Shown here piece after piece: positions 9,457 to 52,695 of a DNA stretch of 64,000 nucleotides. Position numbers and translations under genes: made by a program. The DNA is from an uncultured Pelagibacteraceae bacterium. Its GTDB lineage: Bacteria > Pseudomonadota > Alphaproteobacteria > Pelagibacterales > Pelagibacteraceae. The notes below the pieces were generated by a model. The model was given only the letters and a program-made list of their open reading frames with translations, was not told the origin of the DNA and ran no database searches. Numbering within the stretch: position 1 is the first letter of the stretch; each line of letters begins with the position of its first letter. Location of the stretch: assembly GCA_902556065.1 (NCBI GenBank), contig CACDUV010000003.1:1-64000 (forward strand). Direction: 5' to 3'.

Positions 9457-10047
9457 ATGGCTAGAAAAGGAAAAGTTTCTCGAAAAACAAAAGAAACCAG
9501 TATCAATGTTGAATTAAACATTGATGGTAAAGGTAAATACCAAATTGATACTGGGATAGGTTTTTTAGATCATATGCTTGAACAACTATCAAAGCATTCT
9601 CTAATTGATCTAAAAGTAAAAGCAAAAGGTGATACTCACATCGATCTTCATCACACAACAGAAGATACAGGAATTGCAATTGGAGAAGCTTTAAAAAAAG
9701 CTGCAAAGAAATTTGTAGGTATTAAAAGATATGCACACAGAGTTATTCCTATGGATGAAACTTTAACTAGAGTTGCAATCGATGTTTCAAATAGACCTTA
9801 TTTAATTTGGAAAGTAAAATTAAAAGTTGAGAAACTTGGTGAGATGGACACAGAATTATTTAAAGAATGGTTCCAGGCATTTTCACAGGCCGCAGGTATT
9901 ACAATGCATGTCGAAAATATTTATGGTGATAACAGTCACCACATCATTGAGTCTTGCTATAAAGCTTTAGCAAGATCATTAAGAGAGGCACTAGAGATGG
10001 ACCCTAGAAGTAAAAAAAGTATTCCATCCACTAAAGGCTCATTATAA
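9457..10047 (+). CDS. hisB: Imidazoleglycerol-phosphate dehydratase
   Basis: It dehydrates imidazoleglycerol phosphate to imidazoleacetol phosphate in histidine synthesis. Metal-binding motifs are [11 protein letters not shown] near residue 66, [13 protein letters not shown] before it, and [23 protein letters not shown] in the C-terminal half. At 196 aa it is the stand-alone dehydratase without the phosphatase domain found in enteric HisB. It is first in a run hisB-H-A-F-E with gaps of -8 to +5 bp. Confidence 0.97.
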
Positions 10048-51488: not shown

Positions 51489-51809
51489 ATGGCAATTCAA
51501 AAAGCTAAATTTTCAATTGGAGATATTGTAAAACACAAGCACTTCGAATTTAGAGGTGTTATTTATGATGTAGATTTTGAGTTTAATAATTCAGAGGAAT
51601 GGTATCAGTCTATTCCAAAAAATGTTAGACCGAGAAAAGATCAGCCTTTTTATCATCTACTTGCTGAAAATGATGAAATTACTTACGAAGCCTACGTTTC
51701 AGAGCAAAATCTTTTGATGGATGACTCTGATGAGCCTATAAAACATCCGTTAATTGAGGAAATTTTTTCAGGCAAAAAGGGCTCAAGTTATTTCAAGCTT
51801 TCTAATTAG
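51489..51809 (+). CDS. hspQ: Heat shock protein HspQ
   Basis: HspQ is a small hexameric protein that acts as a specificity factor for Lon and binds hemimethylated DNA in enteric bacteria. The 106-aa protein reads AKFSIGDIVKHKHFEFRGVIYDVDFEFNNSEEWYQSIP, then KDQPFYHLLAENDEITYEAYVSEQNLLMDDSDEPIKHP, the family core. It diverges from yciB and is followed by a 178-bp gap holding a candidate small RNA. Confidence 0.92.
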   Translation: MAIQKAKFSIGDIVKHKHFEFRGVIYDVDFEFNNSEEWYQSIPKNVRPRKDQPFYHLLAENDEITYEAYVSEQNLLMDDSDEPIKHPLIEEIFSGKKGSSYFKLSN

Positions 51810-51875
51810 CCACCATTATTCAAACACATTTATTTCCAATCTAGGCCACACTAATTTTTTATTTAATGGTTATAT

Positions 51876-51948
51876 TCTGATCAAGAGTGTTAAAAGTTAG
51901 TCTTTCTTTATTATCTCCCCCCTCTCCATTCTTGATCAGATAATTTTT
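51876..51948 (+). ncRNA. Candidate structured RNA with long hairpin and C-rich loop
   Basis: TCTGATCAAGAGTG (51876-51889) pairs with CATTCTTGATCAGA (51927-51940) as a 14-bp stem with one G-U pair. It closes a 37-nt loop that contains CTCCCCCCTCTCC, and the stem is followed by TAATTTTT. The CU-rich loop could pair with Shine-Dalgarno sequences, as in alphaproteobacterial 'cuckoo' sRNAs. The loop is too long for a plain terminator, though it might also end hspQ transcripts. No promoter was identified with confidence. The stem is directly visible; the RNA function is inference. Confidence 0.45.
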
Positions 51949-51987: not shown

Positions 51988-52695
51988 ATGTTTAAACTTC
52001 TAGAGCCAAATAAAATTTTTCAAATTACTTCGAAGGCGCCAAAATATGTTTTGTTTTTATTTATTATTGTCCTATCTGTTGGATTAGTTGAAGCACTTAT
52101 ATTGTCTCCGGAAGATTACAAGCAGAGTGACGCTGTCAGAATTATGTATGTTCATGTTCCTGCCGCTTGGATTTCTCTTGGAATTTTTTCTTCAATAACT
52201 TCTTTATCAATTTCAGGATTTATTTTTAAAAACAAAAATTTTTTTTTAATATCTAAAAGTTTAGCACCCTCAGGCTTTGTTTTTAATATTATTGCTTTGG
52301 TAACTGGTTCTATCTGGGGCAAACCCACTTGGGGTACATGGTGGGCCTGGGATGCGAGAATTACTTCAATGTTAATTTTAGCTCTATTTTATGCTTTATA
52401 TTTAATCTCTTGGAGAATTTATGAAAATGAGGAAAAAGTTTTTAAAATCTCAACTTTTATTACTATTCTCGGAATTATTAATGTGCCGATAATTAAGTAC
52501 TCTGTTGATTGGTGGAATACACTTCACCAGCCTGCTTCAATAAATATCTTGTCAAAAAGCTCGATCCATTCATCAATGCTTTATCCGTTATTGATAATGA
52601 CTGCGGCATTTGCTCTTTTTTCGTTGTTAATTTTCTTAATGAAATATAATACAGAACTGATAAAAATTAAAAATAAAGGCTTAGATAGATTATGA
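51988..52695 (+). CDS. ccmC: Heme exporter protein CcmC
   Basis: CcmC is an inner-membrane protein with six hydrophobic segments that loads heme onto CcmE. The tryptophan-rich motif WGTWWAWDARITSMLILALFYALYLI is flanked by conserved His in YVHVPAAWISLG and HQPASI. The length of 235 aa is normal. It opens the run ccmC-D-E-F-G-H, each gene overlapping or within 10 bp of the next. The genes for the ABC exporter, ccmA and ccmB, are not in front of it. Confidence 0.96.
   Translation: MFKLLEPNKIFQITSKAPKYVLFLFIIVLSVGLVEALILSPEDYKQSDAVRIMYVHVPAAWISLGIFSSITSLSISGFIFKNKNFFLISKSLAPSGFVFNIIALVTGSIWGKPTWGTWWAWDARITSMLILALFYALYLISWRIYENEEKVFKISTFITILGIINVPIIKYSVDWWNTLHQPASINILSKSSIHSSMLYPLLIMTAAFALFSLLIFLMKYNTELIKIKNKGLDRL

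Follow-up and report, generated by a model that had tools for sequence, protein, structure and literature searches.

The window analysed here is a 64-kb stretch of DNA from an uncultured Pelagibacteraceae bacterium, and the feature under study lies in the 178-bp spacer that separates hspQ from ccmC, both on the + strand. The initial annotation had described a 14-bp stem enclosing a 37-nt loop at this place, and the hairpin is there exactly as described, with 51876-51889 pairing with 51927-51940 through 14 bp, one of them G·U, and with UAUCUCCCCCCUCUCC contained in the loop. A 15th pair (51890/51926) is present in most relatives and mismatched in the window genome. The window hairpin has a computed folding energy of -17.5 kcal/mol, lower than that of almost all dinucleotide-shuffled sequences (z = -3.0). 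The features of the locus are the following:

51489-51809, + strand: hspQ, always found upstream of the hairpin RNA
51823-51848, + strand: conserved box of 26 nt, consensus AACACAaTTagcTCAAAtCTTnGaCA, at a distance of 27-30 nt from the stem's TGATC, on its 5' side
51871-51876, + strand: TATATT, a possible -10 element, read from the sequence only
51876-51940, + strand: core of the hairpin RNA, its stem formed by 51876-51889 and 51927-51940, supported by covariation and by the G·U versus A·C count
51912-51925, + strand: conserved loop core, consensus UAUCUCCCUC(U) from the alignments, in the window UAUCUCCCCCCUCU, its C run being longer; the putative anti-Shine-Dalgarno seed
51988-52695, + strand: ccmC, the downstream neighbour in the genus of the window (g1) and in g8, not in g10 or g12

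An inverted repeat alone is not unique here, as about ten sites of the window have 13-bp arms separated by 25-49 nt (most of them AT-only), and it is conservation that lifts the hairpin above chance. The scan for similar hairpins also returned a further inverted repeat at 9497-9554 (CCAGTATCAATGT / AAATTGATACTGG, 32-nt loop). The C run, singled out as striking in the initial annotation, is indeed the sole C6 of the 64 kb (at 51917; there are also one G6 and eight other 5-nt runs of C or G), but it is a locally lengthened version of the C3 in the usual CTCCCTC, and some clades have C4-C6.

We propose that the box at 51823-51848 is the promoter or activator region of the hairpin RNA. The complete genome G070 contained no other convincing copy of it (one weak match) and the first 960 kb of G012 contained none, so that a box belonging to a wider regulon was discarded. 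A scan with the sigma-70 consensus did not predict a promoter at the hairpin locus. At the other end, the T-rich tail that had been noted after the stem is a T tract that is not conserved across relatives. No terminator-like site was detected between 51780 and 52010, and the hairpin was for this reason rejected as an intrinsic terminator.

Conservation, strand and neighbourhood of the hairpin

A search of 61 genomes matched the spacer in many genomes of the same genus, and in 22 of these same-genus genomes the hairpin was found at the same place, 3' of hspQ and 5' of ccmC. The covariance-model search of SAR11 genomes that had been suggested at the outset was carried out with a model (R1) that matches 254 of 397 Pelagibacterales genomes, or 103 of 151 if only the good ones are counted. 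There is one R1 locus per genome; the second matches that we examined were either the palindromic stem of that locus read from the opposite strand or fell in ORFs by chance, and a multi-copy RNA was discarded. Weak R1 matches in G311 (L079) and in G111 and G085 (L080, L081) were also chance hits, to coding sequence, the true copy of G311 being L247.

Starting from the upstream gene, a regular expression for the hairpin matched 79 of the 80 named hspQ loci, which all come from Pelagibacteraceae or Pelagibacterales, and in the remaining one (L353) the hairpin could be seen by eye with one base changed. Every readable Pelagibacteraceae hspQ locus has the hairpin. The 14 genomes of the window's genus that lacked it and were tested all lacked hspQ as well, and look like assembly gaps. 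Some of these 14 genomes (G079, G107, and G187 are examples of the set) are rated >95% complete, and the absence of hspQ from them reflects either a region prone to assembly problems or a true loss of hspQ and the RNA together.

The initial annotation had made the case for an RNA depend in part on the conservation of the stem in relatives, and the stem is strongly conserved, with clear covariation. Among 20 same-genus copies, 98.7% of the stem cells pair and 7 of the 15 pairs have changed on both sides. In an alignment of 20 divergent copies that includes other genera, pairing is kept in 98% of the cells and the pairs changed on both sides rise to 11 of 15 (27 such cells), while shuffles gave means of 3.9 pairs and 5.5 cells, with none of 500 reaching either observed value. 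Sliding the pairing partners along this extended alignment destroys the pairing of the stem. The non-Watson-Crick pairs on the + strand amount to 39 G·U and 0 A·C, and since the same cells are mismatched when read from the - strand, the + strand is the one that corresponds to the RNA. A DNA operator or an RNA of the - strand would not give wobbles on one side only. Judging from these alignments, the hairpin is conserved as an RNA of the + strand, and we consider it a new and well-supported structured RNA family of Pelagibacteraceae.

Two other genera, g10 (L247) and g12 (L249), have an almost wholly replaced stem sequence, and still the 15-bp stem stays and the loop ATCTCCCTC is kept, with folds of -18.7 and -20.4 kcal/mol, respectively, and z values of about -5. 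In both genera the gene downstream of the hairpin is not ccmC. In all loci read the upstream gene is hspQ, and the downstream one is either ccmC or an unrelated gene. Therefore, the RNA goes with hspQ and is not a ccm leader, and a ccm attenuator was discarded on the same grounds. The hairpin travels with hspQ and with the conserved 26-nt box. The hairpin had initially been placed before the ccm operon, which is correct for the window, but the link is incidental and absent in two genera. In family f2 another gene lies directly 3' of hspQ and the hairpin is absent. As for the genes that take the place of ccmC in L247 and L249, the RNA is followed there by a secreted protein of ~180 aa, ending in MSYNHLSNASLG.KNPGANSYMFNF, which by eye resembles lipid A deacylase PagL-like proteins, and then by a gene for a lactate-dehydrogenase-like FMN protein.

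The usual loop core is UAUCUCCCUC, in which the C run varies from C3 to C6 and the flanking UCU is kept; nearly all copies read have UAUCUCCC(C0-3)UCU. About half of the 79 named loci have C3 and the others C4, C5 or C6, and loops with C4-C6 were counted in 49 of 399 genomes of the genus. The C6 of the window is an extreme within this range and probably not ancestral, given that the other genera have C3 too. In its 5' half the loop varies in sequence. Many copies (L054-L068) carry there a second C-rich patch, ACCCUU or UUUCCCUU, which is absent from the window and could be a second seed.

The proteorhodopsin leader and other candidate targets

The complementarity of the loop to Shine-Dalgarno-like sequences, already pointed out from the window alone, was borne out by the relatives, whose usual CUCCCUC is complementary to GAGGGAG. 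For a screen of targets we used 787 orthologue pairs between G070 and the first 960 kb (71%) of G012. Leaders that pair strongly in both genomes were no commoner among these pairs than for shuffled loops, and therefore no broad regulon is shown. Proteorhodopsin ranked second of the 787, and no other gene had GAGGGAG, the exact complement of the core, conserved in G070 as well as G012. Since an exact conserved 8-mer match to some gene also turns up with 4 of 56 permuted cores, we take this match as suggestive only.

The leader of proteorhodopsin, GAGGGAGTTTTTTATG, is nearly invariant in the genus, with AGAGGGAGUUUUUUAUG exactly complementary to the usual loop. The stretch AACUAAC...GAGGGAGUUUUUUAUG is nearly invariant, being kept in 25 of 26 readable proteorhodopsin loci, and the sequence further upstream varies. 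The GAGGGAG core was recovered in 15 of 16 further loci of g1 as well as in g8, and by pattern search the leader was unchanged in 30 of the 30 genomes that have the leader pattern. The duplex of this leader with the C3 loop was calculated at -18.3 kcal/mol, compared to -8.9 kcal/mol for the anti-Shine-Dalgarno tail of the 16S rRNA, whose sequence we assumed from what is generally known of alphaproteobacterial 16S. Loops with C4, C5 and C6 pair less well (-12.5, -14.3, and -10.8 kcal/mol, respectively). We looked for co-evolution of the C-run length with the leader and saw none, the leader being unchanged in the C4-C6 genomes. Exceptions to the GAGGGAG leader are g12, with GAGAGG despite a canonical loop, and the deviating leaders of L217 and L262. 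Family f2 has a proteorhodopsin leader without GAGGGAG and also lacks the hairpin, which amounts to a single phylogenetic contrast. Proteorhodopsin had no match in the window's own assembly, which is 74% complete. Just upstream of the leader there is a palindrome, TAGTTTATATAAACTA or TAGTTTAAATTTAAACTA (L214-L240, L259-L275), and GUUUUUUAUGAAAAAAC could also form a hairpin with the start codon in its triloop. The conservation of the leader could have other causes, and proteorhodopsin is put forward here, tentatively, as the leading candidate target.

Third in the ranking came an ABC binding protein of the branched-chain amino acid type (livK-like, g70_345 / g12_247), with the leader AGAGGAAGATAATG (G000:C1:153970-153980, L035), which is complementary to a large part of the loop in G070 as well as G012. 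An aldolase-like gene also ranked high, and for a dmdA-like leader good pairing was obtained in G070 alone; dmdA and the leaders of some transporters are possible further targets. The two targets originally suggested, glcE and DUF4212, fared worse. The glcE leader reaches -15.1 kcal/mol in the window, and its G070 orthologue only -8.0 kcal/mol with the consensus loop; the values for DUF4212 are -10.2 and -6.9 kcal/mol, respectively. For both, pairing is weak or is lost in G070, and the first 960 kb (71%) of G012 yielded no orthologue of either.

A proposed mode of action and its rivals

With their small number of transcription factors, SAR11 cells are believed to rely on post-transcriptional control. 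To our knowledge, little is known about their regulatory RNAs beyond riboswitches and a few orphan motifs. The hairpin described here is a structured RNA spread along the lineage, apparently not in Rfam, with clear covariation, a defined strand and a conserved loop. The Pfam model of Hfq had no match in 10 SAR11 genomes (G000, G070, G012, and seven others; nine of the ten 99-100% complete), while the control genomes (Caulobacter, E. coli and others) were matched, and a phmmer search of SAR11 agreed in finding none. With Hfq undetected, any pairing of the RNA in these cells would have to be Hfq-independent, as has been reported for NfeR1 (PMC10746234).

As the most likely reading of the hairpin, with a probability of about one half (0.52), we propose an Hfq-independent, trans-acting sRNA that would mask Shine-Dalgarno sites with its C-rich loop, acting like the αr14 and AbcR RNAs. 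An RNA gene of ~65-80 nt would be transcribed on the + strand, starting from the conserved box downstream of hspQ, and its rigid 15-bp stem would present a large open loop, UAUCUCCC(C0-3)UCU, able to pair with sites of the GAGGG(AG) type and to block the loading of ribosomes. The best candidate to be masked in this way would be the leader of proteorhodopsin. The stronger proposal, that a dedicated lineage-wide sRNA sets the translation of proteorhodopsin by masking its invariant GAGGGAG, in a group apparently devoid of Hfq, is more speculative and we hold it only tentatively. If true, it would place a post-transcriptional switch on one of the main light-harvesting proteins of the ocean, a light-driven proton pump, in its most abundant bacteria, and it would be a case of anti-Shine-Dalgarno riboregulation in alphaproteobacteria that have no detectable Hfq. 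In P. ubique, proteorhodopsin has been reported to be expressed constitutively (PMC3090418).

The same sRNA might have a broad or different set of targets, such as transporter and metabolic mRNAs, with proteorhodopsin not among them. This would agree with the αr14 and AbcR RNAs of rhizobia, which mainly target transport mRNAs (PMC8844928, PMC10746234), and with the high rank of the livK-like and aldolase-like genes; that proteorhodopsin alone keeps the exact complement across the screen makes this alternative somewhat unlikely. Of similar weight is a cis-acting element of the hspQ transcript, i.e., a hairpin of the 3' UTR with a part in the stability, processing or termination of that mRNA, from which a 3' UTR-derived RNA might be released, or else a 5' leader of ccm. 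The hairpin always lies within ~70 nt of the end of hspQ, it precedes ccmC in g1 and g8, and a consensus promoter was not scored. However, a near-invariant loop is not required of a terminator or stabiliser, the conserved box stands between hspQ and the stem, and the T tract is not maintained across relatives. The lack of ccmC downstream in g10 and g12 speaks strongly against a ccm leader.

A less probable role is that of a protein-binding RNA, in which the C-rich loop would be a landing site or decoy for Rho or for a cold-shock protein. Changes in the length of the C run would be tolerated by a protein that reads pyrimidines, and a run going from C3 to C6 between constant UCU suits such a reader; besides, a role in post-transcriptional regulation has been suggested for CspE and CspL of P. 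ubique (PMC2864753). Against it, the bases of UAUCUCCCUC stand in the same exact order in most copies and in three genera, beyond what a pyrimidine reader needs, and the match to the proteorhodopsin leader would be left unexplained. An inverted repeat acting at the level of DNA, for example as the operator of a transcription factor, would account for the palindrome TGATCA in the arms and for the R1 score of the opposite strand, but wobbles confined to one strand and arms replaced in g10 and g12 with their pairing intact make it very hard to believe, and we discarded it.

Comparison with known RNAs

In Rfam 15, taking the gathering score of a family or above as the criterion of membership, the window gave only a tRNA and no plausible match below threshold, and six related loci gave none. 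A precedent within the group is the set of candidates found in Candidatus P. ubique by Meyer et al. (2009; ffh, rpsB, rhtB, pntA, babIM elements, etc.), which are also SAR11-specific hairpins detected by comparative analysis. Neither hspQ nor ccm was found in that survey, whose table covers intergenic regions >100 bp with a GC content of at least 26% (PMC2704228). Most of the hspQ-ccmC spacers that we measured have <26% GC.

The initial annotation had likened the RNA to the cuckoo type of alphaproteobacterial sRNAs. In that family, which also includes αr14/NfeR1, CcsR of Rhodobacter is processed from a transcript shared with a DUF1127 small-protein gene (CIN1 locus), driven by an RpoH promoter and closed by an intrinsic terminator (PMC10253847), whereas the neighbour of the SAR11 RNA is hspQ and a terminator was not found. 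None of the features of the family (motif, number of hairpins, DUF1127-type neighbour, Rho-independent terminator) is seen here: there is a single hairpin, CUCCUCCC occurs in none of the copies read and CCUCCUCCC is equally missing. On our reading, the SAR11 hairpin RNA falls outside the cuckoo family.

The likeness is greater at the level of the presumed seed, and the alphaproteobacterial anti-Shine-Dalgarno sRNAs are the nearest known counterpart of the SAR11 RNA. AbcR1 and AbcR2 (αr15) carry two 8-nt unpaired anti-Shine-Dalgarno motifs, CUCCUCCC and UUCCCCUC, by which they block the translation of transporter mRNAs (PMC8844928). They share with the SAR11 RNA the location of such motifs in unpaired regions and differ from it in having two of them and several stem-loops, against one hairpin. 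AbcR has also been contrasted with the Hfq-independent NfeR1 (PMC10746234), and SAR11 is without detectable Hfq. The αr14/NfeR1 RNAs of Rhizobiales consist of three hairpins, each with the ultraconserved CCUCCUCCC and with stems that differ greatly (PMC10746234), whereas the SAR11 RNA has one hairpin with UCUCCCUC. What both have in common is a conserved C-rich anti-Shine-Dalgarno motif in the loop over stems of very divergent sequence. The SAR11 loop, predicted to be unpaired, C-rich, complementary to Shine-Dalgarno sites and kept while the stems diverge, has in this regard the characteristics expected of the seed of an anti-Shine-Dalgarno sRNA.
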